A stretch of DNA of 64,000 nucleotides, taken from Hyphomicrobiales bacterium. Lineage in GTDB: Bacteria > Pseudomonadota > Alphaproteobacteria > Rhizobiales > Rhizobiaceae. This document shows, one piece after another, positions 43,117 through 60,600 of the stretch. A model generated the notes under the pieces. It ran no database searches. It had not been told where the DNA came from and saw only the letters and a list, made by a program, of their open reading frames with translations. Every line of letters begins with the position of its first letter. Position 1 is the first letter of the stretch. The stretch lies in NCBI GenBank assembly GCA_900466575.1, contig UBMP01000007.1, forward strand, positions 62,001 through 126,000, given 5' to 3'. Made by a program: the position numbers and the translations under genes.

Positions 43117-43911
43117 TTACCCTGCCGTATACCCGCCGTCGGCATAGAGAATATGCCCGGTGTAGAAATCGGATGCGCGCGAGGCGAGAAAGAGAAGCGG
43201 CCCCGCCAGATCTTCCGGCTCGCCGAGACGTCCCTTCGGCACACGCTGGAGGAACCCCTGCCGCACAGCCTTCGCATTCTCGGTGTCCTCAAACATCCAG
43301 GCCGTGAGCGGCGAACGGAAAACGGTCGGCGCGATGGCGTTGACGGTTATGCCGGTCGGGCCCAGTTCGCAACCGAGCGCCTTGGTGATGCCATCCACCG
43401 CCGCCTTGGAGGCGCAATAGGCGGTGTAGCCGGCCGGATGGCCGAGCAGACCGCGGGCCGAGCTGACCAGCACGATTTTCCCGCCTACGCCCCTCGCCTT
43501 CATGTGTTTCGTGGCGGCCCGCGCCATCAGCCAGCTTTGCGTAACATTGGCATCCATCACCGAAGCGAAGGCTTGCGGCTCCATGTCCTCGATCTTGGCG
43601 ACCTTGTTCATGCCCGAGGCGACGACGAGGATATCCAGCGCGCCGAAGGACTCGACGGCCTTGTCCGCCAGCGTCGCGCAGGCCGCTTCGCTGTCAGGCC
43701 TTGCATTCGCCTCGACGACCTCAGCCCCGTTCGCCCTGCATTCCGCGGCAATTTCCGTGAGTGCAGCCGCATTGCCTGCGGCCAGGACCAGCTTGCAGCC
43801 GGCGCCCGCCAGCGTGCGGGCGGCGACCATGCCGAAGGCCCCGGAGGCTCCGGTGATCAGCGCGACCTTGCCTCTGACATCGAACATCGAAAGCGGATCG
43901 GAGAGCGACAT
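43117..43911 (-). CDS. SDR-family oxidoreductase
   Basis: A 264-residue short-chain dehydrogenase with the nucleotide turn VALITGASGAFGMVA and a catalytic YCASK after SSARGLLGHPAGY. The usual NNAG motif reads VVASGMNKV, a divergence. The start at 43911 overlaps the cupin stop by one base. It probably acts on a hydroxyl or keto group of the operon substrate before or after the 3-hydroxyacyl dehydrogenase step. Confidence 0.9.
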   Translation of the reverse strand: MSLSDPLSMFDVRGKVALITGASGAFGMVAARTLAGAGCKLVLAAGNAAALTEIAAECRANGAEVVEANARPDSEAACATLADKAVESFGALDILVVASGMNKVAKIEDMEPQAFASVMDANVTQSWLMARAATKHMKARGVGGKIVLVSSARGLLGHPAGYTAYCASKAAVDGITKALGCELGPTGITVNAIAPTVFRSPLTAWMFEDTENAKAVRQGFLQRVPKGRLGEPEDLAGPLLFLASRASDFYTGHILYADGGYTAG

Positions 43912-44258
43912 CACTTGGCTTCCTTCGGATAGGGGATCACGACCAGCATGGAACAGACGTGGTTCGAGCGGTTCTCGATCTTGCGCAGCTCGCCGGGTGC
44001 AATCGTGCAACTGTCGAATTTGCCGAGCACTGTCTCCGTCCCATCGACGATCACCGTCATCTCGCCTTCCAGTACGACATAGACCTTCTCGAAGGGTGTG
44101 CTGTCCGGACCCGCGCCGCCGCCGGGCAGGAATTGGCTGAGCCCGACCCATTGATTGGTCGGCCCACCCTCTTCGAAGCCCTGCAGACGGAGACCGACGA
44201 CATCCCAGTGATTGGGCGCCTGATAGGGTCTCGCGTCCTCGAACCGTTTCAGATGCAT
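43911..44258 (-). CDS. Cupin-domain protein
   Basis: A 115-residue single cupin barrel (STPFEKVYVVLEGEMTVIVDG, then KFDSCTIAPGELRKIENRSNH). The first cupin motif has Glu but lacks the usual paired histidines, so metal binding is doubtful. It sits between the cyclase and SDR genes, with GGGAGG before the ATG. It could be a small isomerase, a lyase or an accessory binding protein; the function is not assignable. Confidence 0.82.
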   Translation of the reverse strand: MHLKRFEDARPYQAPNHWDVVGLRLQGFEEGGPTNQWVGLSQFLPGGGAGPDSTPFEKVYVVLEGEMTVIVDGTETVLGKFDSCTIAPGELRKIENRSNHVCSMLVVIPYPKEAK

Positions 44259-44284
44259 GACATGCCTCCCGTCGCTCGCTTGCT

Positions 44285-45121
44285 TCAGAACGCCTTGCCG
44301 GCTTCGATGCGATAGTTCTGTCCCTTGTCGATCATGGCGACGAGGCGGATGATGCAGCCGTCGCCGCGATCCCAGTTCCAGGGGAAGAATGCGAAGGTGC
44401 AGCGCTTGCCGGTGACGGCATCAAGGTCGCCGCCGACATTTTCGATGCCGAGAATGCCGTTCTTGAAGAGGATGTTGTGCACCGGCTCCCATTCCGGGAA
44501 ATCGTCCTTCCAGTCGCGACCGCCGGACCATTCCTTGTATTCCTCGGCGAGATGCGGCAGCAGCGGGCCGTTGCGCTGCGGGCCAATGGCGGTGGCGAGC
44601 GGATGATCGTTTGCCTGCGTATCGTGGCCGACGACCTTGACGCCCTTCTCGACCATCCATTCGCCGGCGGACGGCACGAAGCCGGGGCAATAGGCGAAAT
44701 AATCGCCGTCTTCATACTGCTTGTGCCAGCCGGTATTGATGATCAGGACATCGCCCTTGCGGATCGCATGGCCGCAGGCCTTTTCCAGATCCTCCCCGGT
44801 GATCGGTTCCCACTTCTTCTTGGGCAGGCTGACAACGATGCCGGAGCCGAAGAAATGCGGCAGCGGCACCTCGTCGATGAAGGGCGTGCCCTGCACGACA
44901 TGCGCCGGCGCGTCGATATGGGTGGTCGCATGCATTGTGGTGGTGATGCGCTGCGAGAGCACGCCGGACTTGGCCATGTAGTGAATACGCTCGATATGGA
45001 CATCCTGGAAATAGGGCCAGTTGGGATGCTGGAAGCCGAAGCGATGGCTGAGATTGTAGAATTCCAGCCCCATCGAGTTTTCAGTGTTGGATTCGAATTC
45101 GATCCCGCGGATTTTCACCAT
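44285..45121 (-). CDS. Cyclase-family metal hydrolase (kynurenine formamidase/isatin hydrolase fold)
   Basis: A 278-residue protein of the cyclase family that includes bacterial kynurenine formamidase and isatin hydrolase. The metal-binding motif HxGTHxDxPxH is present with an Ala for Gly as MHATTHIDAPAH. The family hydrolyses amides or lactams. The start at 45121 follows GGGAGGAGTGCGTC. It is the first gene of the operon, directly behind the candidate IclR operators, so it probably acts on the imported substrate first. Confidence 0.88.
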   Translation of the reverse strand: MVKIRGIEFESNTENSMGLEFYNLSHRFGFQHPNWPYFQDVHIERIHYMAKSGVLSQRITTTMHATTHIDAPAHVVQGTPFIDEVPLPHFFGSGIVVSLPKKKWEPITGEDLEKACGHAIRKGDVLIINTGWHKQYEDGDYFAYCPGFVPSAGEWMVEKGVKVVGHDTQANDHPLATAIGPQRNGPLLPHLAEEYKEWSGGRDWKDDFPEWEPVHNILFKNGILGIENVGGDLDAVTGKRCTFAFFPWNWDRGDGCIIRLVAMIDKGQNYRIEAGKAF

Positions 45122-45205
45122 GACGCACTCCTCCCGTGGCCCGAACCGCCTCCGGTCCGTGCTCATAAGATTTCAGATTTCCTCTTGGATGTTCCTCCCA
45201 TCCAT

Positions 45206-45282
45206 ACCGCATTATGATGCATGCGCACCGTATTGTGGTCAACAACTTTTTGCGATACGGTTCAATCGTACCGCATTGTGGG
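45206..45282. promoter_or_regulatory. Candidate IclR operator cluster
   Basis: Three direct repeats fill the divergent gap: ACCGCATTATG (45206-45216), ACCGTATTGTGG (45227-45238) and ACCGCATTGTGG (45271-45282). A dyad TGCGATACG-N7-CGTACCGCA (45252-45260 and 45268-45276, one mismatch) overlaps the last repeat. They lie between the cyclase operon and the IclR gene. Confidence 0.6.
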
Positions 45283-45317
45283 ATATAGAAGTCAGATGAG
45301 ATTCGGGTGGGAGCAGC

Positions 45318-46082
45318 ATGGCTGACATCGACAAAGACGACGCAGGCCTTGCGCGCAACGGCATTCAGGTGATTTCGCGCGCGGCCGCCGTGCTGCGGGC
45401 ATTGCGCGAGGATCCGAACGGCCTGTCGCTAGGGCAGATCGCCGAGCGGGTGGGGCTCGCCCGCTCCACGGTACAACGCATCGTGGCGGCGCTTCAGGAG
45501 GAGAGGCTGGTTTTCGCGACGGGAAGCGGAGGCATCCGGTTGGGTCCGGAAGTCACGGCCCTTGCGGAAGCAGCCAAGTTCAACGTTGTCGATCTTTGCC
45601 GCCCGCTGCTCAACGAGATTGCCCAGCAGACCGGGGAGACGGCCGATTTGTCGGTCCTGCGCGGCCACCAGATGATCTTTCTGGATCAGGTCCCGGGAAC
45701 GCACCGGTTGCGGGCAGTCTCAGCAGTCGGTGATGTCTTTCCGCTGACGGATACGGCCAATGGCCGCGCCGTGCTCGCCGAGATGCCGCCGGAAACGGCC
45801 GAACGTCTGGTTCTTGAGGAGTTTCGCAAGCGTGGCCTGGCAGAGCCATGGACGCGCTTTGCGCCGATTCTCGACGACGTACGCCGGACCGGCATCGCCT
45901 ATGACCTTGATGAACATACGGTCGGCATCTCCGCAGCCGGGATCGCTTTCAGTGACTGGAAAGGCGCGCTCCACGCCGTTTCCATCCCTGTCCCCTCCTC
46001 CCGGTTCGAGAGCCAGAAGCCCGCCGTCGTTCAAGCGCTCCTGCGTGTCAAGGCTGACGTCAGGCGACTTTTCGGCGGGTAA
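45318..46082 (+). CDS. IclR-family regulator
   Basis: A 254-residue IclR-type regulator with an N-terminal winged helix (LSLGQIAERVGLARSTVQRIVAALQEERLV) and a C-terminal effector domain (DLSVLRGHQMIFLDQVPG; TGIAYDLDEHTVGISAAG). It is divergent from the ten-gene operon starting at 45121 and is probably its regulator. The ATG at 45318 follows GGTGGGAG. The 184-nt gap to the TPR gene shows no gene. Confidence 0.92.
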   Translation: MADIDKDDAGLARNGIQVISRAAAVLRALREDPNGLSLGQIAERVGLARSTVQRIVAALQEERLVFATGSGGIRLGPEVTALAEAAKFNVVDLCRPLLNEIAQQTGETADLSVLRGHQMIFLDQVPGTHRLRAVSAVGDVFPLTDTANGRAVLAEMPPETAERLVLEEFRKRGLAEPWTRFAPILDDVRRTGIAYDLDEHTVGISAAGIAFSDWKGALHAVSIPVPSSRFESQKPAVVQALLRVKADVRRLFGG

Positions 46083-48336: not shown

Positions 48337-49251
48337 ATGAACACGCTGGGTCTTGATATCCGGATTTTGCGTACGCTCCAGATCGTCGCAGAAACCGGAA
48401 ATGTTACCGAGAGTGCCCGGCGGCTGGGGCGGACACAGCCTGCAATCACGCTGCAGCTACAGAGATTGGACACCATTTGCGGGTTCAATGTCTTCCGCAC
48501 GGAAGGGCGCAAGCTGGTTCTGACGCCAGACGGCGAACTCGTTCTTTATTATGCGAGTTCCATCCTGCGGCTTCATGACGAACTGCTCTCCCGGCTGGAA
48601 TCACCCGATGTCGAGGGGCACGTCGTTCTGGGAACGCCGGACCTCTACGCAGCGTTTATTCTTCCGTCCATCCTGGCGCTCTTCCGCCAGGCGTTCCCGC
48701 GTGTCCAGGTCCAGCTCCAGTGTTCGCTGTCGACGCCGCTGGTCCGGCTCGTTCATCGCGGCGAAGTCGATCTTGCGCTGGTGACGCGGATGAACGACTT
48801 CTCGGGCGGTCAGCTCGTGCGGCAGGAACAGCTGATCTGGATGACCGGCGAAAACTCCACCGCCCACACCGAGACACCGGTGCCGCTGGCACTGCTGCCG
48901 CAAGGCAATATCTACCGCGACCATGCCATCGAATGTCTGGAAAACGCACGCCATGCGTGGCGGATTGCCTGCGTGAGCGAAAGCGTCAGCGGCCTGCAGG
49001 CGGCAGTCTTCTCCGGCATGGCCGTGACGGTTCTCGGCCGCAGCGCGTTGGTCCCGGGCATGCGCGAGATCGTGCACGGACCGGACTTTCCCGAGCTGCC
49101 CAAGGTTGATCTGCTGCTCTACAAGGCGCCGGGCACAAAATCGGCCGCCGCCAATGCGCTGCATGACTATCTCGCGCACTATCTGGCGCTCGATCGCACC
49201 TCCGATCTATCGGGCACCGCGCCTCCGCGCTTTGTTGCGCAGGTGCCCTAA
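48337..49251 (+). CDS. LysR-family regulator
   Basis: A 304-residue LysR-type regulator with the N-terminal helix-turn-helix NVTESARRLGRTQPAITLQLQRLD and a C-terminal effector domain. The start at 48337 (MNTLGLDIR) matches usual LysR N-termini; an ATG at 48256 would add 27 residues through the operator cluster. It lies upstream of the importer-hydroxylase operon on the same strand and is the probable regulator. Confidence 0.9.
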   Translation: MNTLGLDIRILRTLQIVAETGNVTESARRLGRTQPAITLQLQRLDTICGFNVFRTEGRKLVLTPDGELVLYYASSILRLHDELLSRLESPDVEGHVVLGTPDLYAAFILPSILALFRQAFPRVQVQLQCSLSTPLVRLVHRGEVDLALVTRMNDFSGGQLVRQEQLIWMTGENSTAHTETPVPLALLPQGNIYRDHAIECLENARHAWRIACVSESVSGLQAAVFSGMAVTVLGRSALVPGMREIVHGPDFPELPKVDLLLYKAPGTKSAAANALHDYLAHYLALDRTSDLSGTAPPRFVAQVP

Positions 49252-49579
49252 TCGCACCGAAGCCGTGCGCCCTTGTGAACAAGCCGGCAAGCAGAGACGA
49301 CGGTCGCTCCCTACCAATAAAAACTCTAAAATTTTTTCTCGCGTCGCAGGACACGCGCACTGCCCGTCTCGACGGCAGAATGCGCGCTCGGTCGCTGAAT
49401 TCTCCCCTAAAATGACGGCTTTGCGACGAAATTGTGCAGCGCATGATCAATTTTGCAGCGCATTGCAAACCCTTATGAACGAAATAAAAATTTCTGATTT
49501 TGCATTTTCTGGAAATAATAATCTATTCGATTGCAGGGCGAGGGCCCACTTCGTTGTTCAAGCAGGAAAGAGCTGAAGA
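49252..49579. other. 328-nt AT-rich gap before the importer operon
   Basis: No gene is seen. The segment is unusually AT-rich for this region, especially 49470-49540. It contains two TGCAGCGCAT repeats and a TTTGCA-N6-TGCAAA dyad and is the likely promoter of the operon starting at 49580. Confidence 0.6.
49435..49469. promoter_or_regulatory. Candidate LysR binding sites before the importer operon
   Basis: TGCAGCGCAT occurs at 49435-49444 and 49454-49463, 19 nt apart, about two helical turns. The second copy is the centre of a perfect dyad TTTGCA-N6-TGCAAA (49452-49469). They lie 111-145 nt before the start codon. Confidence 0.55.
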
Positions 49580-50887
49580 ATGACCAAAGCAACAAAGCAT
49601 TCGAAGATCAGCAGACGCAATTTTCTGAAGGCAGGCGCGGCGGTGGCGGGTGCGGCAGCCGGCTCCGGCACCATTACCGGGTTTCCCACCATCTGGGCGC
49701 AGGAGATTAAGGATATCGAGCTGAGGCATGTCGGCGTTTCCTACTCGGTGGTCAAGGCCATCGGCGATCAGGCCGCCAAGGACCTTGGATTCAAGGTGAC
49801 GATGCAGAACCTCGATACGTCAGCCGCCATCAATCGCTTCATCACCCAGCCCGACACCGTCGACATCTGCGACCTGGAAGGCTGGCAGGCCAAGCTCGCC
49901 GCCAAGCGCGGCGTCATCCAGGGGATCGAGGCCAAGAAGATCAAGCAGTTCGACAACTTCCTGCCGATCTTCACGAAGGGCGAGCTGAATGGCGTCAAGA
50001 TCGCCAACGAAGGCATCTCGCCCTATGCGGCGCTCTATCTTGAGAAGAAGGACTCCACCGAGCTGCACAAGGGCATGGCGGATTGGCTGACCAACGTGCC
50101 GCAGGTCTACAACGCCGACTCCATCGGCTATCGGCCAGACCTCGTCGACCACCCGGTCACCGAGTGGAAGGACCTCATCGACCCCAAATACAAGGGCAAA
50201 GCGGCCATCCTGGATGTTCCGGCGATCGGCATCATGGACGCCGCGCTCTGCATGGAGAGCGCCGGTCTCATCAAGTATGGCGACAAGGGGAACATGACCC
50301 GCGAGGAGATCGACAAGACGATCGACAAACTCATCGAGCTCAAGCGAGCCGGCCACTTCCGTGCGACCTGGACAACGTTCGACCAGTCCGTGCAGCTCAT
50401 GGCGGCCGGCGAAGTCGTCATCCAGTCCATGTGGTCGCCTGCAGTCGCCGCCGTCCGCGTGAAGCAGATCCCTTGCGTCTATGCGCCCGTCAACAAGAAG
50501 GATGGCAAGGAAGGTTATCGCGGCTGGTGCAACGGCATGGGTCTCATGAAGCACCTGACCGGCAAGAAGCTTGAGGCGGCCTACGAATACATGAACTGGT
50601 ATCTCGAAGGCTGGCAGGGCGCCTTCGTGTCCCGCTACGGCTATTACAGCCCCGTTCCCTCGACCGCCAAGAAGTTCATGACCGCGACCGAATGGGCCTA
50701 CTGGTATGAAGGAAAGCCCGCTCCGGAAGGGATCACCGATCCTTTCGGCGTTCCCATGGAAAAGGCCGGCACTGTACGCGACGGCGGTTCCTTCAGCGAC
50801 CGCGTCACCAATATCTCCTGCTGGAACACCCTAATGGATGAAGCCGCCTACATGAACAAGCGGTGGAATGACTTCAAGGTCGCCTGA
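49580..50887 (+). CDS. PotD-like solute-binding protein with twin-arginine signal
   Basis: A 435-residue extracellular binding protein of the spermidine/putrescine (PotD) class. ISRRNFLKAGAAVAGAAAGSG is a classic twin-arginine signal. The mature part has GFPTIWAQEIKDIELRHVGVSY and the later IQSMWSPAVAAVRV. It is the first gene of the operon. PotD-type proteins bind many ligands besides polyamines; the molybdenum hydroxylase downstream suggests a heterocyclic or aromatic compound. A hairpin separates it from the permeases. Confidence 0.9.
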   Translation: MTKATKHSKISRRNFLKAGAAVAGAAAGSGTITGFPTIWAQEIKDIELRHVGVSYSVVKAIGDQAAKDLGFKVTMQNLDTSAAINRFITQPDTVDICDLEGWQAKLAAKRGVIQGIEAKKIKQFDNFLPIFTKGELNGVKIANEGISPYAALYLEKKDSTELHKGMADWLTNVPQVYNADSIGYRPDLVDHPVTEWKDLIDPKYKGKAAILDVPAIGIMDAALCMESAGLIKYGDKGNMTREEIDKTIDKLIELKRAGHFRATWTTFDQSVQLMAAGEVVIQSMWSPAVAAVRVKQIPCVYAPVNKKDGKEGYRGWCNGMGLMKHLTGKKLEAAYEYMNWYLEGWQGAFVSRYGYYSPVPSTAKKFMTATEWAYWYEGKPAPEGITDPFGVPMEKAGTVRDGGSFSDRVTNISCWNTLMDEAAYMNKRWNDFKVA

Positions 50888-50903
50888 TCAGGTCATGCAT
50901 CGC

Positions 50904-50928
50904 GCCCGGACGGCAGCGCCGCCCGGGC
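50904..50928 (+). terminator. Hairpin between binding-protein and permease genes
   Basis: GCCCGG (50904-50909) pairs with CCGGGC (50923-50928), continuing inward with CGGC/GCCG across one A-C mismatch and a 3-nt loop. No U tract, so it may attenuate or protect the binding-protein message. Confidence 0.5.
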
Positions 50929-50985
50929 TCCCCCACAGTCTTCTTCGTCCTTGACCACCAGTGCCAGAATTCCGGAGACAGGTTC

Positions 50986-51849
50986 ATGAAATTGAGCAGG
51001 AATGCGATCGGTTGGCTCAACACCATCCCACTGCTTGCCGTGCTGATCCCCTTCTTCGTCGTGCCGATCCTCGTCGTCCTGATGGCGAGCTTCATGCAGA
51101 CCGACGGCTTCGGCGGCATGTTCATGGATTTCACGCTCAGCAATTACGCCGGCATTTTCACGTCGTCGCTGACCTACAGCCTCTACTACGAGACGATCAA
51201 GTTCGCGGTTCTCACCCTGATCTTTTCCTCCGTCATCGGTTTCTGGGTCGCCTATTTCCTCGTTTTCCATGTCCGCAACCCGCTGATCGCCATGGGTCTT
51301 TTCCTGGTGTGCACGGTTCCTTTCTGGACCTCCAACATCATCCGGATGATCTCGTGGATACCGCTTCTGGGGAAAGAAGGACTGATCAACCGCGCGCTGC
51401 TGGAGCTTGGGCTGATCAACCATCCGCTCGAATTCCTTCTCTATTCGAGCTTCGCGGTTGTGGTTGCCTACGTTCATCAGCTGACGATCTTCATGATCGT
51501 GCCGATCTTCAACTCCATGGCCAGGATCGACAAGCGGATCATCGAGGCCGCGCTCGATGCCGGCGCCAGCCGTCTGGACATCATGCGCCTGATCATTCTG
51601 CCGATGTCCAAGAGCGGCATCGCGCTCGGAGCCATCTTCGTTGTTTCCATCGTCATGGGTGACTTCTTCGTGGTGAAGGTGATGTCCGGAGGCGGTTCGG
51701 CCTCGGTGGTCGGCGCCTTCTATGAGGATGTTGGCGTGCTGCAATATCCAAACGCCGCGGCCAGCGCGGTCGTGCTGACCGTCCTCGTCATGCTGATGGT
51801 CGCGCTCATACTCAGGATCGTCAATATTCGCCGGGAGATCGCACGATGA
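50986..51849 (+). CDS. PotB-like ABC permease
   Basis: A 287-residue inner-membrane permease with about six segments (TIPLLAVLIPFFVVPILVVLMA at the N-terminus). The cytoplasmic EAA loop reads EAALDAGASRLDIMRLIILP, where the ATPase docks. The gene overlaps the next permease by 4 nt. It forms the channel with the PotC-like protein. Confidence 0.92.
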   Translation: MKLSRNAIGWLNTIPLLAVLIPFFVVPILVVLMASFMQTDGFGGMFMDFTLSNYAGIFTSSLTYSLYYETIKFAVLTLIFSSVIGFWVAYFLVFHVRNPLIAMGLFLVCTVPFWTSNIIRMISWIPLLGKEGLINRALLELGLINHPLEFLLYSSFAVVVAYVHQLTIFMIVPIFNSMARIDKRIIEAALDAGASRLDIMRLIILPMSKSGIALGAIFVVSIVMGDFFVVKVMSGGGSASVVGAFYEDVGVLQYPNAAASAVVLTVLVMLMVALILRIVNIRREIAR

Positions 51850-52733
51850 CGAACGCCCCGTCCGTCCAGACCGTCAACCCTGCCAGGCCGCGCAAGAGGC
51901 GGAGCTCGGGCGACCGCCCCTGGACCTTCTACGTGCTGGCGAGCCTGTTTGCGCTCTACGTTCTGGCGCTCTACGGCCCGATGATCTCGATCTACATCCT
52001 ATCCTTCCAGGATGTCCGTGGCGGCCTTGTCTTCCCGATGCGCGGCTTTTCGTTCTACTGGTTCAACGAGCTGGTCATGCAGACACGGGCGGGCGACGTC
52101 GCCGGCGCATTCAAGCGCTCGATCTGTCTCGCGGCTCTCGTGACCGTCATCACGGTGGTCTTCTCCTTCATGGCCGGCATGGCCTTCCGCCGGCGCTTCC
52201 GCGGCGACACGATCGTCTTCTACATGATGATCGGCAGTCTGGTGGCGCCCGGTCTGGTTCTCGGCATCGGGATCGGCCTTGGCTTCCAGATGCTGGGAAT
52301 TCCCACCAACTGGTACACGTCCGCACTCGGCGCGCAGCTGTCCTGGACGCTGCCCTTCGGGATCCTCGTGATGTTCGCGGTCATGTCCCGCCTGAACGGC
52401 AACTGGGAAGAGGCGGCACGCGATCTTGGCGCGACGCCGGCACAGACGACACGTCTCGTCGTTCTGCCGATCCTGGCGCCCGGCCTGGTCGCGGTGGCTC
52501 TCTTCGGCTTCACGCTGTCTTATGACGAGTTCGCCCGGACGCTGCAGACCGCGGGATCCCAGAACACGTTGCCTCTGGAAATCTGGAGCATGACCCTCAA
52601 CGTGACGTCTCCGGTTCTCTATGCGCTGGGGACCGTCTCCACGATTGTTTCATTCGTCATCATCGGCATCAGTCTCGGCATGATCGTCCTGCTGCAGCGC
52701 CGCATCGCCGCCCGCAAATCTGGAAATCAATAA
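51846..52733 (+). CDS. PotC-like ABC permease
   Basis: A 295-residue permease with a basic N-terminus (PARPRKRRSSGDRP) and about six membrane segments. The EAA loop is EEAARDLGATPAQTTRLVVLP. The stop at 52733 directly abuts the ATPase ATG. Confidence 0.92.
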   Translation: MTNAPSVQTVNPARPRKRRSSGDRPWTFYVLASLFALYVLALYGPMISIYILSFQDVRGGLVFPMRGFSFYWFNELVMQTRAGDVAGAFKRSICLAALVTVITVVFSFMAGMAFRRRFRGDTIVFYMMIGSLVAPGLVLGIGIGLGFQMLGIPTNWYTSALGAQLSWTLPFGILVMFAVMSRLNGNWEEAARDLGATPAQTTRLVVLPILAPGLVAVALFGFTLSYDEFARTLQTAGSQNTLPLEIWSMTLNVTSPVLYALGTVSTIVSFVIIGISLGMIVLLQRRIAARKSGNQ

Positions 52734-53852
52734 ATGGAGAGCCGTGTGAGCAAGGGAAAAGGAGATATCGAATTGGCCGGCGTAGCCAAGAGCTACGACG
52801 AGCGGACCTATGCGGTTGACGGCATCAACCTGAAGATCCCGGATGGTGCCTATTGCTGCCTTCTCGGGCCTTCCGGCTGCGGCAAGAGCACGATCCTGCG
52901 CATGATCGCGGGCCACGAAGACCCGACGGTGGGTGAAATCCTCATCGGCGGCGAGGACGTGGTCGGTCTCGATCCGGTCGCACGCCGCACCGCCATGATG
53001 TTCCAGTCCTATGCGCTCTTCCCGCATCTGAGCGTTCGCGACAACGTCGCCTTTTCCCTGCGGGTCAAGGGCATGTCGAAGGCAGAGCGGGACAGGCGGA
53101 CCGAGGAGATGATGGAAAAGGTGCAAATCCTCGAATTTGCCGACCGCATCCCCTCCCAGCTGTCCGGTGGACAGCAGCAACGCGTCGCGCTGGCCCGCGC
53201 CGCCATCACTGAGCCGCGTGTGCTTCTCCTCGACGAGCCGCTGTCGGCACTCGACGAACACCTGCGGCTGAAGATGCGCGCCGAGCTCAGCCGGATGCAG
53301 CGCGCACTCGGGATTACCTTCATCCACGTCACGCATACGCAGCTGGAAGCGATTGCCCTCGCTGATATGGTCGTCGTGATGGACAAGGGCGTCATCCGGC
53401 AGGCGGGCTCCGCGCGCGAAATCTATGCCGCGCCGAAAGACCGGTACGTGGCGGAATTCATCGGTGGCCAGAACGTCATTTCCGGCAGGGTGAGAGGGCT
53501 GGGCGCCTCGGGCGCACGGCTGGAAGGGTCAGCCTTCCCCTCCGTCGACATCCCGATCCATGCCGGTCGGCGACTGGAGGACGGGCAGAGCATCGACATT
53601 GCGATCCGGCGCGACGAGATCAATCTTCTGCGGCCAGGACAAGCAGGCCTGCCCGGTGGCACCACCGGTGTCGAGGGCGCCATCGTCGGCGTCGAGTACC
53701 AGGGCAATTTCGTCAAGGTCTTGATGAATGCCGCCGGCGAGGACGAGTTCGTGGCCTATGTGCCGGAGCGGCGGTTCTTCGAGGATGACTTCCATGTCGG
53801 AGATCGTGTCTTTGCGGCCTGGCAGGTCGAGCATGCGCATCTATTGGTTTAA
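52734..53852 (+). CDS. PotA-like ABC ATPase
   Basis: A 372-residue ATPase. It has Walker [12 protein letters not shown], signature [14 protein letters not shown], Walker [14 protein letters not shown] and a C-terminal TOBE-like domain after residue 250. The annotated ATG abuts the permease stop. A GTG four codons in (52746) has a better-placed GGAG and may be the true start. It drives import together with the two permeases. Confidence 0.92.
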
Positions 53853-53869
53853 CAGGTGAGGTGGGTGTT

Positions 53870-54343
53870 ATGGAAATCGGGTTCACGTTAAATGGTCGGC
53901 ATGTCGAGGTTTCCTGCAAGCCTTCGACGCTTCTGAGCGATCTCATCCGCGAGCAGTTGTCGCTCACGGGCACGCATGTCGGTTGCGACACGAGCCAGTG
54001 CGGGGCCTGCGTGGTTCATCTCAACGGCGACTCCGTGAAAAGCTGTACGGTACTGGCCGTTGCTGCGGATGACGGCGAGGTGCGCACGGTCGAGGGTCTC
54101 TGTGCAGTCGATGGGACCCTCCATCCCATGCAGCAGGCGTTCCATGAGAACCATGGTCTCCAGTGCGGCTTCTGCACCCCCGGTATGTTGATGAGCGCCA
54201 TCGACCTGGTGAAGCACATTCCCGATCCCACCGAAGCCGAGATCCGTGAATGGCTGGAAGGCAATATCTGCCGCTGCACGGGTTACCAGAACATCGTCAA
54301 GTCCATCATCGCTGGTGCCGCCGCCATGCGAACCGCATCCTGA
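53870..54343 (+). CDS. Molybdenum hydroxylase small [2Fe-2S] subunit (CoxS-like)
   Basis: A 157-residue subunit carrying two [2Fe-2S] clusters. The plant-type cluster uses C39, C44, C47 and C59 ([18 protein letters not shown]), the second C99, C102, C134 and C136 ([18 protein letters not shown]). It relays electrons from the molybdenum site to FAD. The start at 53870 lies 17 nt after the ATPase stop, behind GAGGTGG. Subunit order here is small, large, medium. Confidence 0.93.
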
Positions 54344-54354
54344 AGGAGAACACC

Positions 54355-56742
54355 ATGTCTGAAGTGATCGGAATTGGCGCCTCACCGAAGCGCAAGGAGG
54401 ATGCACGCTTCGTGCGCGGGCGCGGTACCTATGTCGCCGACATCAAGCGGCCCGATATGCTGGTGGGGGCATTCCTGCGCTCGCCACACGCCCACGCCTA
54501 TCTGAAGTCCGTCGACGTCTCGGATGCGCTGGCTGCCCCGGGCGTTGTCGCGGTCTACACGGGTGAGGATCTCAAGAAGGACAATGTCGGCGGTCTTCCC
54601 GTCGGTTGGGGGATTTCCGGGAAGGACGGCAATCCCATGAAGGAGCCCCCTCACCCGCCGATTGCCGTTGGCAAGGTGCGCTACGTCGGCGATGCGGTCG
54701 CCTTTGTCGTGGCCGAAACGACCGATCAGGCCGAAGCGGCGGCGGAACTGATCCGCGTTGATTACGACGTGCTCCCGGCGGTCGTCGGTGTCGTCGATGC
54801 GCTGCGTGCCGGGGCACCCGCCGTCTATGACGACATCGAAGATAATCTGTGCTGCGACTGGGACCTCGGCGATGCGGCAGCCGTGGAGGCGGCGTTCCGC
54901 GAGGCCGCTCATGTGGCCAGCGTCGAACTGGTCAACAACCGGCTGATCGGTAATCCGCTGGAGCCGCGGGCAGCAATCGGCGAATACAATTTCGCCACAG
55001 GCCAGTACACGCTGTGGACGACCAGCCAGTTCCCGCATGTCGTGCGTCTGCTGATGGGCGAATTCGTCCTGCATATTCCGCAGCACAAGTTGCGCGTTGT
55101 CGCCCCGGACGTCGGCGGTGGTTTTGGCGTCAAGCAGTTCCATTATGCCGAAGAGGCGATTGTCACCTGGGCAGCGGGCAAGCTTGGTCGGCCGGTGAAG
55201 TGGGTGGCGCGGCGCTCCGAGGGCTTCATCTCCGATGCCCATGGACGCGATCACGTCACGGAGGCGGAGCTGGCCGTTGACGAGAACGGCAAGTTTCTGG
55301 CCATGCGCGTCAAGACGCTGGCCAATATGGGCGCCTATCTTTCGACCTTCGGGCCGAACATTCCGACGAACCTCTATGCGCCTCTGCTTTCCGGCGTTTA
55401 CCGCATTCCGGCCATCTATTGCGAGGTGAAATGCGTTTTCACCAATACCGTGCCGGTTGATGCCTATCGTGGCGCCGGGCGTCCCGAGGCCACCTTCGTC
55501 GTCGAACGGCTGGTCGACCTTGCGGCACGCGAGATGGGGATCGACAAGATCGATATCCGCCGCCGCAACATGATCCCCAAGGAGGCCTATCCCTACCAGA
55601 CCCCTGTCATCGTCGAGTATGACAGCGGCGATCCGATGGGTTGCCTGGATCGTGCCGAAGAACTGGCCGATGTTGCCGGTTTCGAAGCCCGCCGGGCCGA
55701 AGCGGCGGCGCGCGGCAAGTTTCGCGGTCTCGGCGTTTCCACCTATGTCGAGGCCTGCGGTCTGGCCCCGTCCCGTCTGGCGATCGGCCTCGGCGCGCGA
55801 AGCGGGTTGTACGAAAGCGCCACCGTCCGCGTCCACCCTTCGGGCGCGGTGACCGTCCTCATCGGTACCCACAATCACGGGCAGGGACACGAGACCACGT
55901 TTGCGCAGATCGTGTCGCAGCAACTCGGTGTCCCCTTCCAGGACATCGACATCGTCTTCGGCGATACGGACCGCGTTCAGCACGGTCTGGGCACCTATGG
56001 TTCCCGTTCGCTCGTCGTGGGCGGTGCGGCACTGTCGAGGGCAGGCGACAAGGTCATCCTCAAGGGCCGCAAGATCGCCGCGCATCAGCTCGAAGCCTCG
56101 GTTGATGACATCATCTTCGAAAACGGAGAGTTCTCCGTTGCCGGGACCGACCGGAAGAAGACCTTCAAGGAAATCGCCGGCTCCGCCTACGTGCCGGGCA
56201 ACTATCCGCTCGAGACCCTCGAACCGGGACTTGAGGAACAGGCCTATTACGACCCCATCAACTTCACCTATCCGGGAGGCGCACACTTTGCCGAGATCGA
56301 GATCGATCCCGACACCGGCATTGTCACTCTGGAGCGTTACACCGCGGTCGACGACGTCGGTACGATCATCAACCCGATGATCGTTGAGGGGCAGCTGCAC
56401 GGGGGCATCGTCCAGGGGATCGGTCAGGCGCTTTTCGAGCACGGCGTCTATGACCAGTCGTCCGGTCAGCTCCTGTCCGGCTCGTTCATGGACTATTGCA
56501 TGCCGCGGGCCGATAACATGCCCCAGATCGTCCTCGAACCGCATTCCACCCCGTGTGCACACACGCCCATGGGTGTGAAGGGTTGCGGCGAATGTGGCAC
56601 GATCGGCTCGCCAGCCGCCGTGATGAGCGCGGTTGTCGATGCGCTGAAGCCGCTCGGCGTCAGCCATGTCGATATGCCGGCAACGCCCAATCATATCTGG
56701 AACATCATTCGCAACTCACGCGCCCAGATCGCGGCCGAGTGA
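54355..56742 (+). CDS. Molybdenum hydroxylase large subunit (form-II CoxL-like)
   Basis: A 795-residue xanthine-oxidase-family subunit that binds the molybdopterin-cytosine dinucleotide cofactor. It has the N-terminal a/b-hammerhead (RKEDARFVRGRGTYVADI), GGGFGVKQ, the AYRGAGR motif at 370-376 and the catalytic E746 in GVKGCGECGTIG. AYRGAGR, not AYxCSFR, marks a form-II protein, so it is not a true CO dehydrogenase; it should hydroxylate a carbon next to nitrogen or an aldehyde. It follows CoxS by 11 nt behind GAAGGAG. Confidence 0.93.
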   Translation: MSEVIGIGASPKRKEDARFVRGRGTYVADIKRPDMLVGAFLRSPHAHAYLKSVDVSDALAAPGVVAVYTGEDLKKDNVGGLPVGWGISGKDGNPMKEPPHPPIAVGKVRYVGDAVAFVVAETTDQAEAAAELIRVDYDVLPAVVGVVDALRAGAPAVYDDIEDNLCCDWDLGDAAAVEAAFREAAHVASVELVNNRLIGNPLEPRAAIGEYNFATGQYTLWTTSQFPHVVRLLMGEFVLHIPQHKLRVVAPDVGGGFGVKQFHYAEEAIVTWAAGKLGRPVKWVARRSEGFISDAHGRDHVTEAELAVDENGKFLAMRVKTLANMGAYLSTFGPNIPTNLYAPLLSGVYRIPAIYCEVKCVFTNTVPVDAYRGAGRPEATFVVERLVDLAAREMGIDKIDIRRRNMIPKEAYPYQTPVIVEYDSGDPMGCLDRAEELADVAGFEARRAEAAARGKFRGLGVSTYVEACGLAPSRLAIGLGARSGLYESATVRVHPSGAVTVLIGTHNHGQGHETTFAQIVSQQLGVPFQDIDIVFGDTDRVQHGLGTYGSRSLVVGGAALSRAGDKVILKGRKIAAHQLEASVDDIIFENGEFSVAGTDRKKTFKEIAGSAYVPGNYPLETLEPGLEEQAYYDPINFTYPGGAHFAEIEIDPDTGIVTLERYTAVDDVGTIINPMIVEGQLHGGIVQGIGQALFEHGVYDQSSGQLLSGSFMDYCMPRADNMPQIVLEPHSTPCAHTPMGVKGCGECGTIGSPAAVMSAVVDALKPLGVSHVDMPATPNHIWNIIRNSRAQIAAE

Positions 56743-56754
56743 AGGAGGAACTCC

Positions 56755-57561
56755 ATGCAGTCGTTCAGTTATCACAAGCCCGGGACGGTCACGGATGCTG
56801 CCAGCCTGCTCGCCGCCCGCGACAATGCCGCTCTGCTCGCCGGGGGGATGACTCTGCTCCCGACCATGAAGCAGCGTCTGGCAGCACCGGACGATATCAT
56901 CGATCTTGCGGCAATCCGTGAGCTTTCGGGTATCACGATGGAGGGCGAGGACCTCGTTATCGGGGCTATGACCCGGCACGCCGATGTGGCGGGCTCGGAT
57001 CTCGTAAAAGAGGTCTTGCCGGCCCTTGCGGGGCTTGCCTCGCGTATCGGCGATCAGCAGGTGCGCCACCGTGGCACCATTGGCGGATCGATCTCCAACA
57101 ACGACCCGGCGGCGGATTATCCCGCTGCAATCCTGGCGCTTAACGCGACGATCGTCACGAGCCAGCGCGCCATTGCGGCAGACGATTTCTTCGTCGGTCT
57201 GTTCGAGACGGCCTTGCGCCCCGGCGAGATCGTAACAGCGATCCGGTTTCCGCGGGCCAAGCGTGCCGCTTATGCCAAGTTTCCCAACCCTGCATCCCGT
57301 TATGCCATCGCGGGTGTCTTCGTGGCGCAAACAGGCGGCGCGGTGCGTGTGGCGGTGACCGGCGCTGCTCCATTCGTCTTCCGGGCGACTGACGTGGAAG
57401 CGGCTCTGTCGGCCAACTACGCGGTCGAGGCGCTGGAGCGCCTTTCGATCGATACGCAGGATCTCATGTCGGACATTCATGCCGACCGTGAGTACCGTGG
57501 ACATCTGGTGATGGTGATGGCACGCCGGGCCGTTGCCGAGAGCCTGAAGCGCTCCGGCTGA
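56755..57561 (+). CDS. Molybdenum hydroxylase FAD subunit (CoxM-like)
   Basis: A 268-residue FAD-binding subunit. The FAD motifs are LLAGGMTLLPTMKQRL near residue 30 and RHRGTIGGSISNNDPAADYPA near residue 105. It passes electrons from the iron-sulfur clusters to an acceptor. The ATG at 56755 follows AAGGAGG, 12 nt after the large subunit. The 146-nt gap downstream shows no gene. Confidence 0.93.
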   Translation: MQSFSYHKPGTVTDAASLLAARDNAALLAGGMTLLPTMKQRLAAPDDIIDLAAIRELSGITMEGEDLVIGAMTRHADVAGSDLVKEVLPALAGLASRIGDQQVRHRGTIGGSISNNDPAADYPAAILALNATIVTSQRAIAADDFFVGLFETALRPGEIVTAIRFPRAKRAAYAKFPNPASRYAIAGVFVAQTGGAVRVAVTGAAPFVFRATDVEAALSANYAVEALERLSIDTQDLMSDIHADREYRGHLVMVMARRAVAESLKRSG

Positions 57562-57707
57562 ATTCCGACCCCATCCACAGATCTGAATGCGCACCGGACG
57601 GTCCCCCGCCCGGTACGGATGGACTGTCATGCCCAAAAGGCAAGCTGCCAGACCTGCGCCCAGCAACCAGAGCCCGGCAGCGCCTGAACCGCGCAAAGGA
57701 AATTCCA

Positions 57708-58559
57708 GTGCAAGAACATGACGACGTGCCCTCGACCTTCTGGAGCATGGATCAGGCCGACAGGGACAGTGCCTACAACAATTCCAAAGCCGTCGCGGAC
57801 AGCGCGGAGCGGCTGGCCGACTGGGAGCGTCGCAGTCATGCATGCCGTGTAGCCGATGATGCCCGAACGGACATCCGCTATGGCGACCTGCCGAACAACT
57901 GCTTCGACTACTTCCCCTCCGGCGAGCAAGGCGCTCCGCTCTTCGTTTTCGTGCATGGCGGCTACTGGCAGAGAAACAGCAAGAACATCTTTGCCTTCGT
58001 ATCGAGCGGCCCGCGTGCCCGAGGCATCGACGTCGCCACCATTGGCTATACGCTTGCCCCTAAAGCCAGCCTCTCGGATATCGTGGCCGAGGTCTTTCAG
58101 GCGGTCGATAGCATTCGCAGTCACGCCGCGGCACTGAAATTCGACCCGGATCGTGTCTATGTCGGCGGATGGTCGGCGGGCGGGCACCTGGCAACGATGT
58201 GTGCGTCGCTTCCGGCCGTTAGGGGCGTCCTGTCGATCAGCGGCATTTTCGATCTGGCGCCGATCTCGCTGACCTATCTCAACGAGAACCTGCAGTTGAC
58301 CCGCGACGAAATCCTGCGGCTTTCGCCGATCAACATGCTGGCGGACCTGAAGGCGCCGGTATCCCTGTTCGTCGGCGGTGAGGAACTGCCCGAACTGCAG
58401 CGCCAGTCCCGCGACTATGCGCGCCGGGCGCAGGCCGAGGGCCACGCCGCGACCTTTACCGTCATTCCCGGATGCAACCACTACACCATCATGGAGCAGC
58501 TGGCATCGCCCGAGGGCGCTTTGACCGCCGCGCTCGCCGACATGGTCGCCATGCCCTGA
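57708..58559 (+). CDS. Alpha/beta hydrolase (kynurenine formamidase/esterase-like)
   Basis: A 283-residue alpha/beta hydrolase. The oxyanion-hole motif HGGYW (83-87) and nucleophile S156 in GGWSAGG are typical of the hormone-sensitive-lipase/arylformamidase group; H258 in GCNHY fits the catalytic histidine. The GTG start at 57708 follows AAAGGAAATTCCAG; no ATG is near. It probably opens an amide, lactam or ester made by the molybdenum hydroxylase. The exact bond is inferred from context. Confidence 0.88.
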   Translation: MQEHDDVPSTFWSMDQADRDSAYNNSKAVADSAERLADWERRSHACRVADDARTDIRYGDLPNNCFDYFPSGEQGAPLFVFVHGGYWQRNSKNIFAFVSSGPRARGIDVATIGYTLAPKASLSDIVAEVFQAVDSIRSHAAALKFDPDRVYVGGWSAGGHLATMCASLPAVRGVLSISGIFDLAPISLTYLNENLQLTRDEILRLSPINMLADLKAPVSLFVGGEELPELQRQSRDYARRAQAEGHAATFTVIPGCNHYTIMEQLASPEGALTAALADMVAMP

Positions 58560-58677
58560 CACCGCGACGACGCTGAACACTCACGCTCGGCAGCGACATT
58601 GGCCAACATTCGCTGGCGCCGGAATGGACGGTGGATGTCTCGGGACCGCCGACCTGCCGGAGAAACTAGGAAAGCAG

Positions 58678-59127
58678 ATGGAACTCAAGGACACTCTCAC
58701 CATAGCGGCACCGGTCGAGGCCGTGTTTGCGGCTCTCACCGATCCTGAAACCGTGCGGGCCTGCATCCCCGGTTGTGAGAGCCTGGTGCCCGTCACCGCG
58801 ACCGAGCTGCAGGCACGTGTTGCACTGAAACTCGGCCCCGTCAAAGCTCGCTTTTCCGGGCTTGTCGAACTCGATGTCAGCGCGGCGCCCCAGCGGATCA
58901 GGCTGTCTGGCAGAGGTGACGGCGGGATTGCCGGCTTTGCTCAAGGGGGCGCCGATGTGGAGCTTCTCGCCGACGGTCAAACGACGATCCTGACCTACGT
59001 CGCCAAGGCCGAGATCGGCGGCAAGATCGCCCAGATGGGCGCCCGCCTGATCGACGGCACTGCCCGCAAACTCGCCTCCGAGTTCTTCACCGACTTCAAA
59101 ACCATCGTCGAAGACGCCAGCCGATAA
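58678..59127 (+). CDS. CoxG-like SRPBCC protein
   Basis: A 149-residue CO-dehydrogenase subunit G-like protein of the START/SRPBCC fold (ELKDTLTIAAPVEAVFAALTDPETVRACIPGCESL; SGRGDGGIAGFAQGGADVEL). Proteins of this family accompany molybdenum hydroxylases and may recruit them to the membrane. The start at 58678 follows CTAGGAAAG; the frame extends to 58624. It ends the operon. The 145-nt gap after it shows nothing clear. Confidence 0.88.
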   Translation: MELKDTLTIAAPVEAVFAALTDPETVRACIPGCESLVPVTATELQARVALKLGPVKARFSGLVELDVSAAPQRIRLSGRGDGGIAGFAQGGADVELLADGQTTILTYVAKAEIGGKIAQMGARLIDGTARKLASEFFTDFKTIVEDASR

Positions 59128-59811: not shown

Positions 59812-60600
59812 TCAGTCGTAATAGTCGGCGGGCGCCTTCTTGAACGTCTGCCAGGTTTCCATGTCGTGGCCCGGAACGACGATCGCGTTTTCCTTTTCGA
59901 CGATCCGCCGCAGCCGCCGCACGGAGGCTGCCGCTTCCCGTGCCGAGGTTAGCGCGCCGGGCAGGCACTTTTCGTTCCAGTGATCCATCGTGTAGGCCGC
60001 GTCGATCGCCAGCAGGATGGGACCGCTATTCGGCAGGCGAACCATGATCGACTGATGTCCGGGCGTGTGGCCCGGCGACAGGAACGTCTGCACGCTTCCG
60101 TCGCCAAAGACGTCGTACTGGTCTTCGTCTTCCATCACGTCCCAGGTGATGCCGTCCTTGGTCAGGTCTTTCTTGATATAGCCGCCCTGCATGAACCAGT
60201 CGGCGGAGAAAGCCCAGTCGATCTCGCGGCGTTGCACGAGATGGCGCGCCTTGGGGAAATTGCCGCAAGCGCCGGAATGATCGAGGTGCAGATGCGAATG
60301 GAGCACGAACTTGATGTCATCGGGCTTCATGCCGATCTTGGCGAGCTGGTTCACGCATCCTTCGGCCGGGTCCATGATCGGGTAGTATTTCTTGGTCGTC
60401 TCACCCCACCAGCCTTCCGGATCGTGAGCCGCCTCCACGGCCGTGCCGCCATCGATGACGATGTTGCCCTTCGGGTGAACGATCAGATACCACGGTATCG
60501 GTGTGAAGAACGGTTCCTGACTGTAGCCGAGCTTGATGTCGACTTCCTTCTGCCGGATCTGGCCGGTCTGGAACATGTAGAGCCTGATATCTGTGCTCAT
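59812..60600 (-). CDS. MBL-fold lactonase-like enzyme (AttM/AiiA family)
   Basis: A 262-residue MBL-fold hydrolase that looks like the N-acyl-homoserine-lactone lactonases AiiA and AttM/BlcC. The metal site is H103-x-H105-x-D107-H108 in HSHLHLDHSG, then H178 (SPGHTPGH), D200 (AIDAAY) and the C-terminal PGHDME. No signal peptide, so it is cytoplasmic. It is the last gene of the minus-strand operon with a ribose-type importer. The ligand may be a lactone, such as a sugar-acid lactone or gamma-butyrolactone, rather than a signal. Confidence 0.88.
   Translation of the reverse strand: MSTDIRLYMFQTGQIRQKEVDIKLGYSQEPFFTPIPWYLIVHPKGNIVIDGGTAVEAAHDPEGWWGETTKKYYPIMDPAEGCVNQLAKIGMKPDDIKFVLHSHLHLDHSGACGNFPKARHLVQRREIDWAFSADWFMQGGYIKKDLTKDGITWDVMEDEDQYDVFGDGSVQTFLSPGHTPGHQSIMVRLPNSGPILLAIDAAYTMDHWNEKCLPGALTSAREAAASVRRLRRIVEKENAIVVPGHDMETWQTFKKAPADYYD

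Follow-up and report, generated by a model that had tools for sequence, protein, structure and literature searches.

We analysed a stretch of 64,000 nucleotides of contig UBMP01000007.1 from a Hyphomicrobiales bacterium (hereafter, the window), in which genes on the plus strand form one conserved operon encoding a solute-binding protein (SBP), two ABC permeases, an ABC ATPase, the CoxS, CoxL and CoxM subunits of a predicted molybdenum hydroxylase and an amide hydrolase, with a LysR-family gene linked to it. The features are as follows:

48337..49251, plus strand: LysR-family regulator (Pfam LysR_substrate, HTH_1)
49472..49500, plus strand: 29-base promoter element, CTTATG-N6-AT-N4-AYTTCYNATTT, the proposed operator of the LysR protein, a pairing that we infer
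49580..50887, plus strand: SBP, Tat-type, with a PotD fold (Pfam SBP_bac_8, TAT_signal)
50986..51849, plus strand: ABC permease, PotB/PotH type (best NCBIfam match PotB, 134.6 bits against a cut-off of 348)
51846..52733, plus strand: ABC permease, PotC/PotI type (Pfam BPD_transp_1; best NCBIfam match PotC, 107.1 bits against a cut-off of 326)
52734..53852, plus strand: ABC ATPase with a TOBE domain (Pfam ABC_tran, TOBE_2; best NCBIfam match PotA, 326.8 bits against a cut-off of 482)
53861..54343 (GTG start; ATG at 53870), plus strand: CoxS, [2Fe-2S] small subunit (Pfam Fer2, Fer2_2)
54355..56742, plus strand: CoxL, Mo-cofactor large subunit, form-II type (Pfam MoCoBD_1, MoCoBD_2, Ald_Xan_dh_C; AYRGAGR; alignment to CoxL, CutL and QorL)
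56755..57561, plus strand: CoxM, FAD subunit (Pfam FAD_binding_5, CO_deh_flav_C)
57708..58559, plus strand: alpha/beta hydrolase of the hormone-sensitive-lipase / kynurenine-formamidase group (Pfam Abhydrolase_3, BD-FAE)
58624..59127 (second ATG at 58678), plus strand: CoxG (Pfam COXG, 107 bits)

Every gene listed in a first-pass annotation of this DNA was found on the plus strand and in the order claimed there, including the small-large-medium arrangement of the [2Fe-2S], molybdenum and FAD subunits. The description of the genes as following without a break applies between the first permease and CoxM, where gaps run from -4 to 12 nt (counting CoxL from the ATG at 54355), but not to the SBP, whose gene is separated from that of the first permease by 98 nt, to the hydrolase (preceded by 146 nt) or to CoxG (preceded by 64 to 118 nt, according to which start is used). 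Likewise, the 17-nt gap given between the ATPase and CoxS is that from the ATG at 53870, and shortens to 8 nt from the in-frame GTG at 53861. Of nine MoCoBD_1 matches in this genome, only the one described here has an SBP and permeases of this type within the surrounding 17-18 kb; another (L142) has an ATPase match of 34% and sugar-type importer genes nearby.

The importer and the hydroxylase are inherited together

We examined the best 80 of 422 CoxL relatives; about 54 of these 80 are Bradyrhizobium by title, so that the counts are not independent. Under a strict test that demanded the SBP, both permeases, the ATPase, CoxS, CoxL and CoxM all in place, the complete set was present in 62 of the 67 loci with enough sequence; L063 and L071, which failed the test for position, had the same genes on inspection. 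The importer was absent from three distant loci (L082, L083 and L086), which are 62-64% relatives with room to tell. Across 297 genomes of the order, the eight that have an SBP at 83% or more are the same eight that have a CoxL at 74% or more, the two genes lying about 5 kb apart, and beyond these eight the matches listed reached at most 58% for the SBP and 62% for CoxL. Importer and hydroxylase are thus not usually apart, and the observation named with the first-pass annotation as one that would refute it did not appear. In 35 genomes of one family, a CoxL at 75% or more was found in 8/8 genomes with an SBP of at least 82%, compared with 0/27 of those with sister SBPs only, two of these 27 also being part of the 297-genome set. 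Distance matrices for importer and enzyme were also correlated (0.79-0.95). As the linkage is conserved across relatives, it is more than chance. The operon clade includes Bradyrhizobium, Rhodopseudomonas, Hoeflea, Mesorhizobium and others.

By eye, the recurrent neighbour families at 31 loci included, besides the core, CoxD-, CoxE- and CoxG-like maturation genes and an SDR gene near four loci, and families confined to the importer-less group; no further pathway gene linked to the operon was recognised among them. Labels for neighbours such as RutB-like, CoxD and CoxE were assigned by eye or taken from annotated records. A literature search found no description of this gene set as such, and none of such genes as a known homarine-type operon, a candidate that we set aside.

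The amide hydrolase has apparently been exchanged and CoxG is variable

While importer, hydroxylase and amide hydrolase form one unit, the exact set seen in the window is atypical. In 56 of the 62 complete loci, the place of the hydrolase is taken by an amidase-signature enzyme (Pfam Amidase, 362 bits), in which K94, an SGGSSGG stretch and S193 were invariant in 8/8 aligned sequences; Lys-Ser-Ser is the catalytic triad of this family. No close orthologue of the amidase was found in 3/3 genomes with the alpha/beta hydrolase, and the window's enzyme is apparently, judged from these sequences, a later replacement. At L034, L075 and L078 the operon is present with no hydrolase at that place. The window hydrolase shares the alpha/beta fold family and the aligned serine and histidine motifs with kynurenine formamidase (PDB 4e11; 60 bits, E 2e-15) and HSL-type esterases. 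It is, however, nearer to 'Lipase 1' (PDB 9n8r; 212 bits), and scores below the HaHSL cut-off (179.2 against 320). CoxG is present in the window as first described, but lies near only 6 of the 62 complete loci.

CoxSLM is a predicted form II molybdenum hydroxylase

Form I CO dehydrogenase is characterised by an AYxCSFR active-site loop, the cysteine of which binds copper. In alignment with the window CoxL, CutL and the CoxL of 1n5w have AYRCSFR, whereas the window protein, of 795 residues, has a single AYRGAGR, at residue 370; the motif is also present in 80/80 of the related loci (the best 80 of 422 CoxL relatives). AYRGAGR, already noted in the first-pass annotation, rules out a form I CO dehydrogenase, as does the score: the best NCBIfam match of CoxL, CO dehydrogenase large subunit, reaches 663.5 bits against the TIGR02416 cut-off of 991.15. 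We predict CoxSLM to be a molybdenum hydroxylase of the form II CoxL type. It shares its S-L-M order, AYRGAGR motif and domains with form II coxSLM clusters (putative CO dehydrogenase, xanthine dehydrogenase family), from which its coupling to an importer of its own and to an amide hydrolase sets it apart. Within the same superfamily, QorL (quinoline 2-oxidoreductase) and 6-hydroxypseudooxynicotine dehydrogenase act on N-heterocyclic compounds; the QorL active-site loop reads AYRGVGF rather than AYRGAGR, and a likeness of this kind does not reveal the window enzyme's substrate.

PMC8235418 and PMC12582533 call coxSLM with AYRGAGR a form II CO dehydrogenase, and one of the two considers it the probable agent of CO oxidation in the strain studied. 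An enzyme of this sort with an unrelated importer next door would fit that naming and the best NCBIfam match; yet the form I motif is replaced, the score falls below the cut-off, and the joint inheritance of importer, amidase and enzyme would have no explanation with CO as the substrate. We regard this reading as extremely unlikely.

The solute-binding protein has a PotD fold with altered ligand contacts

In PotD, the acidic residues E171 and D257 bind the amines. An AlphaFold2 model of the window SBP (pLDDT 86.4) has VcPotD1 as its best Foldseek match (TMt 0.82), indicating a PotD fold. In a profile alignment, PotD D168, W229 and W255 are kept as D220, W285 and W316, while E171 and D257 are replaced by Leu223 and Asn318. 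On these aligned contact residues we rejected a polyamine ligand, so that the first description of the importer as PotABCD-like stands for the fold and not for the two contacts. The importer shares its SBP fold and its permease and ATPase types with PotABCD and PotFGHI, but its proteins all fall below the NCBIfam cut-offs (for the SBP, 23.4 against 582 bits for PotD and 27.9 against 725 bits for YdcS), and its SBP has a Tat signal.

These residues bear on a reading that places CoxSLM in amine breakdown, as an oxidase of aldehydes or cyclic imines. An imported amine, or its cyclic imine, would be oxidised to a lactam or amido acid, which the amidase would then open; the sequence from 1-pyrroline through 2-pyrrolidone to GABA is one example. 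The PotD fold, the Pot-type permeases and ATPase, and the chemistry of a molybdenum enzyme with an amidase suit such amine breakdown, but leucine and asparagine at the two acidic positions speak against it, and no amine oxidase or transaminase was recognised by eye among the recurrent neighbour families of the 31 loci; we consider it improbable.

A PotD-class SBP can bind something other than a polyamine: RPA4648 of R. palustris (COG0687) bound p-coumarate, according to PMC3223731, the one paper on it that our literature search found. It would be consistent with this likeness, which is one of class only, and with the operon's presence in two Rhodopseudomonas loci (L034 and L076), that plant hydroxycinnamic compounds or amides are imported, the hydrolase splitting the amide and the molybdenum enzyme oxidising the freed aldehyde or the ring. 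Among the recurrent neighbours at the 31 loci, however, we recognised by eye neither a CoA ligase nor any gene of an aromatic pathway, and this reading seems very unlikely.

Sister importers lie beside putative genes for ureide and imide metabolism

Related importers consist of an ATPase, a PotD/PotF-family SBP and two permeases, often with a GntR regulator and an Asp/Glu racemase. Their SBPs belong to the same family as that of the window, to which most are 45-58% identical (34% at L129 and L130), but racemase, Rut-type or hydantoinase genes stand in place of CoxSLM; L114 alone among them has another molybdenum-hydroxylase gene near, on the opposite strand. At 29 sister loci, hand-picked without a background control (14 of 82 sister places, 13 plasmid loci and two from genomes with PF09663), an Asp/Glu-racemase-family match was found in 20, that at L114 being only 28%. 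Maleate isomerases and amino acid racemases belong to the same family. Other neighbours were RutA/RutF-like, hydantoinase B, dihydropyrimidinase, N-carbamoyl hydrolase and PuuE-like genes and, in line with the importer genes at L145, one of the barbiturase family; L146 had no convincing neighbour. Hydantoin-racemase-family genes were seen beside sister SBPs.

The oxidative pyrimidine pathway consists of uracil dehydrogenase, barbiturase and ureidomalonase. PF09663, the barbiturase family, which includes cyanuric acid hydrolase as well, was found in 36/80 genomes with SBPs of the window's family as against 18/217 others, and in 7/8 operon genomes of the order sample as against 47/289 others (kinship ignored in both comparisons). 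It was present in 3/12 operon genomes outside that sample and, overall, in 10 of 20. We rejected barbiturase as a necessary partner, as the other ten, Hoeflea marina included, lack it.

The genes around the sister importers speak for the suggestion that the compound is an N-heterocycle; for the window's own importer, the ligand class would follow by analogy. The same logic of uptake, hydroxylation and hydrolysis could serve an N-heterocycle that is not a cyclic ureide but of the nicotinamide, pyridine or purine type: one of the close solved relatives of CoxL is the quinoline hydroxylase QorL, and a side-chain amide would suit an amidase. The sister importers point instead to ureides and imides, and we judge this alternative rather unlikely.

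A LysR protein and a near-unique promoter element accompany the operon

A LysR gene with more than 60% identity is linked to the operon in 62/62 complete loci (downstream and on the opposite strand in 57), and its product is probably the switch of the operon. The 29-base element, at 0-1 mismatch, occurs once and only once in each of 11/12 genomes, ahead of the SBP gene; a looser pattern occurs in 47/66 upstream regions and not once in the other 2.33 Mb scanned on both strands. The pattern was drawn from alignments of the same loci, and the 12-genome scan speaks to specificity, not independence. We propose the element as the operator of the LysR protein.

In Bradyrhizobium DOA9, PMC13207237 reports coxS and the amidase of the operon as RpoN-dependent, with lower expression in rpoN mutants; we matched this operon to L049 through its listed site. 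The RpoN site named there is not conserved, and the best upstream scores equal those of shuffles (mean 13.87 for both). We therefore rejected an RpoN promoter as a conserved feature of the operon, and RpoN control may be indirect. Scans for sigma-70 promoters and terminators did no better than shuffles.

A candidate route for nitrogen scavenging

In light of these data, a plausible if still tentative reading is that the operon is a self-contained means of scavenging nitrogen, with a cyclic ureide or a similar N-heterocycle as candidate substrate. The ligand of the Tat-type SBP would be an uncharged or negatively charged N-heterocycle, a cyclic ureide, imide or lactam resembling hydantoin or a pyrimidine, and the ABC importer would carry it into the cell. 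CoxSLM would add a water-derived oxygen on a ring carbon adjoining nitrogen, after which the amide hydrolase (amidase-signature in most hosts, alpha/beta in the window's clade) would split a C-N bond. The LysR protein may control the operon by acting at a promoter element dedicated to it. In hosts that have CoxG, this protein may assist in docking the hydroxylase at the membrane.

In a more specific and doubtful version, CoxSLM would be a molybdenum-dependent dehydrogenase of the uracil/thymine (cyclic ureide) type with its own importer, the hydrolase acting on the opened ring. We know of no gene assigned to the first enzyme of the oxidative pyrimidine route; were this version true, the operon would be an oxidative pyrimidine-scavenging route with CoxSLM in that role.

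To our knowledge, form II coxL genes, which are often labelled CO dehydrogenase, have few known substrates, and the binding protein of this importer offers a handle on the substrate class of one clade of them. If the ligand class proposed here is true, it would correct the labelling of such genes in nitrogen-limited rhizobia as polyamine uptake and CO dehydrogenase, and the operon would show an enzyme swap, amidase for alpha/beta hydrolase, at one step of a pathway. It is a widely shared bacterial gene set that combines uptake, a molybdenum enzyme and amide splitting, probably to obtain nitrogen from a ring compound.

Importer and hydroxylase genes form a conserved unit

The operon and the linked LysR gene occupy the forward strand as follows:

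48337-49251, +, LysR regulator
49580-50887, +, Tat-type solute-binding protein (SBP)
between SBP and CoxG, +, two ABC permeases, ABC ATPase, CoxS, CoxL, CoxM, alpha/beta hydrolase
ending at 59127 (two possible starts), +, CoxG

The component genes are members of known families; among open PubMed Central papers, we found no description of the joined importer-hydroxylase-hydrolase system. Gaps from the first permease to CoxM are -4 to 12 nt, with 98 nt between SBP and the first permease, 146 nt between CoxM and the hydrolase, and 64 or 118 nt between hydrolase and CoxG, depending on the CoxG start. The 17-nt ATPase-CoxS gap given in the first-pass annotation is correct with the ATG at 53870, and shrinks to 8 nt with an in-frame GTG. 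The AYRGAGR motif that it read in CoxL is indeed there, at residue 370, and is shared with form II coxSLM clusters, which two papers label CODH of uncertain function or regard as the likely agent of CO oxidation (PMC8235418, PMC12582533).

The importer and hydroxylase genes are a conserved unit. From a scan of 84,980 species genomes for CoxL relatives, we kept the best 80 of 422, many from Bradyrhizobium; 13 of the 80 had too little flanking sequence. Of the 67 usable loci, 62 passed a strict test with SBP, both permeases, ATPase, CoxS and CoxM in place (complete loci). The importer was absent at L082, L083 and L086 (CoxL 62-64% identity), while L063 and L071 hold the genes and failed on position only, owing to a second CoxM upstream and a split CoxL match, respectively. 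Lichenifustis flavocetrariae (L063, 2-2700) has a second CoxL, 57% identical, and a 60% CoxM immediately before the operon. CoxL matches are split or shifted in the Bradyrhizobium loci L071 and L072, perhaps through frameshifts or assembly errors.

Across 297 genomes of the window's order, SBP matches of at least 83% and CoxL matches of at least 74% were confined to the identical eight genomes, the window's included, where they lie about 5 kb apart; the remaining matches listed reached at most 58% (SBP) and 62% (CoxL). Within one family, 40 of 248 genomes had an SBP match, 13 of them at 82% or more. When CoxL was compared with 35 of these 40, the other five being already covered by the order sample, it reached at least 75% in 8/8 genomes with an orthologous SBP versus 0/27 with sister SBPs only (same protein family, mostly 45-58% identical). 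For the window and those 63 of the 80 loci where each of the eight genes is well covered, pairwise distances for SBP, permeases, ATPase, CoxL, CoxM and LysR correlated at 0.79-0.98, a correlation reached by 0/200 permutations for each gene pair. Of the nine Mo-hydroxylase matches in the window's genome, a single one has SBP and permeases of the operon type nearby.

A further CoxM-CoxS-CoxL set (L138, G000:C20:31000-49000) sits on the operon's contig, some 77 kb upstream; it comes with a gene judged by eye to be MoxR-like and with a CoxG sharing 61% identity with that of the operon. The window itself carries an AttM-family quorum-quenching lactonase above the NCBIfam cut-off (59812-60600, -), adjoining RbsA/RbsC-type importer genes. 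At 43117-46082, upstream of a TPR gene, an SDR gene, a PF04199 cyclase and an IclR regulator may form a catabolic set of their own.

A linked LysR and a promoter element

A linked LysR with more than 60% identity occurs in 62/62 complete loci, and one element lies upstream of SBP:

49472-49500, 29-base element CTTATG-N6-AT-N4-AYTTCYNATTT

The pattern was derived from these same loci, so its counts show specificity, not independent discovery: a looser form occurs in 47 of 66 SBP upstream regions (19 lack it), a second looser form in 50 of 66, and no copy of the looser pattern was found in the remaining 2.33 Mb of these loci, a figure that includes both strands. In a scan of 12 whole genomes allowing up to two mismatches, 11 had one element with zero or one mismatch, each immediately before SBP; the twelfth (G303) had a single two-mismatch match, elsewhere, and three further genomes carry such an extra match. 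The element's position before SBP is fixed, whereas the side and strand of LysR vary. We infer that LysR binds it.

Apparent exchange of the hydrolase

An amidase-signature gene follows CoxM in 56/62 complete loci, and an alpha/beta hydrolase was scored in three: L009 (Hoeflea marina), L010 (an Oricola MAG) and L053, in which it is found on the far side of LysR. Neither is present in the other 3/62. L054 and L077 combine the amidase with an alpha/beta hydrolase of 39-40% identity, located upstream on the opposite strand, and L012, whose contig ends early, has an alpha/beta hydrolase after CoxM. In an unrooted CoxL tree, the window, L009 and L010 form one group (support 0.986) that adjoins the amidase-bearing L011, L013 and L074. 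No close amidase copy was found in genomes of the alpha/beta-hydrolase group (best matches 42% in the window's G000, 38% in G297, 35-37% in G298); for comparison, two genomes that carry the amidase gave 59 and 89%, and G309, whose site lacks both hydrolases, gave 37% at best. The amidase motifs do not vary among the 8 sequences aligned, and the alpha/beta hydrolase keeps its serine and histidine motifs. The hydrolase at the operon site was thus apparently exchanged, an alpha/beta hydrolase taking the place of the amidase-signature enzyme, and, with the motifs of both kept, the retained feature seems to be an amide- or ester-splitting step rather than a particular enzyme.

CoxG is a variable part of the operon, found near 6/62 complete loci (L010, L013, L055, L065, L070, L074). 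At some loci the neighbours include recurrent genes that we identified by eye as CoxD- and CoxE-like.

Clues to the SBP ligand

The SBP model has the PotD fold (AlphaFold2, 29 sequences, pLDDT 86.4). In a profile alignment PotD D168, W229 and W255 are kept, whereas E171 and D257, the acids that hold the amines in PotD, align with Leu and Asn, respectively.

We examined 29 sister-SBP loci of our own selection: 14 of the 82 sister places in the order sample, 13 from plasmid records, and two added afterwards. Of the 29, 20 have an Asp/Glu-racemase-family match nearby (at just 28% for L114; Pfam confirmed the family for L119 and L128). Other neighbours include RutA- and RutF-like genes at L112 and L124 (RutF below cut-off), hydantoinase B at L111, dihydropyrimidinase with N-carbamoyl hydrolase at L116 and L127, a PuuE-like gene below cut-off at L126 with weaker matches at L129 and L130, and, in line with the importer at L145, barbiturase-family and dihydropyrimidinase-like genes. 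By the L146 SBP there was no convincing neighbour gene. Around the L112 SBP are four RutA-like matches and flavin reductase, isochorismatase-family, amidase and nitrilase-like genes. At L114 another Mo-hydroxylase large subunit (MoCoBD_1/2) lies on the opposite strand, close to the importer and a dihydropyrimidinase-like match, possibly a second importer-hydroxylase pairing.

PF09663, the barbiturase / cyanuric acid hydrolase family, occurs in 36/80 genomes with the SBP family versus 18/217 without (297 genomes), in 29/72 sister-only genomes versus the same 18/217, and in 7/8 operon genomes versus 47/289 others in the order sample, kinship being ignored throughout. It is present in 3/12 operon genomes outside that sample, 10/20 overall, which counts against a strictly pyrimidine reading. 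A contrary datum comes from R. palustris RPA4648, which belongs to the same broad COG as the SBP and bound p-coumarate (PMC3223731). A barbiturase-family gene elsewhere in the window's genome (L135, G000:C32:232000-251000) has close by a 33% amidase and genes for a binding protein and an RbsA-type ATPase; this may be an oxidative pyrimidine cluster, with no dehydrogenase linked to it.

A possible link to nitrogen

In Bradyrhizobium sp. DOA9, coxS (BRADOA9_v1_42221) and 'amidase AF_1954' (42224) were lower in rpoN mutants and were assigned a single site at -188; the available text does not present them as one operon (PMC13207237). That site occurs once in the DOA9 locus, L049, where its final base falls 187-188 nt upstream of the SBP start, and a small gene adjoining the L049 amidase is consistent with 42225, which the paper gives as an ABM-domain protein. 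The genes measured are therefore those of this operon. The site is not conserved across loci and upstream scores equal those of shuffles, so the effect of RpoN may be indirect.

The reading we favour as most likely is uptake of a cyclic ureide, imide or lactam for its nitrogen, the ligand and step order being inferred, whereas what we observed is the gene set and its conservation, the element, the changed residues and the neighbouring genes. After import, CoxSLM would hydroxylate the compound beside a ring nitrogen, and amide cleavage would then release nitrogen to the cell. Because no further genes are linked, this suggests that the product joins general metabolism, or that later steps are encoded elsewhere.
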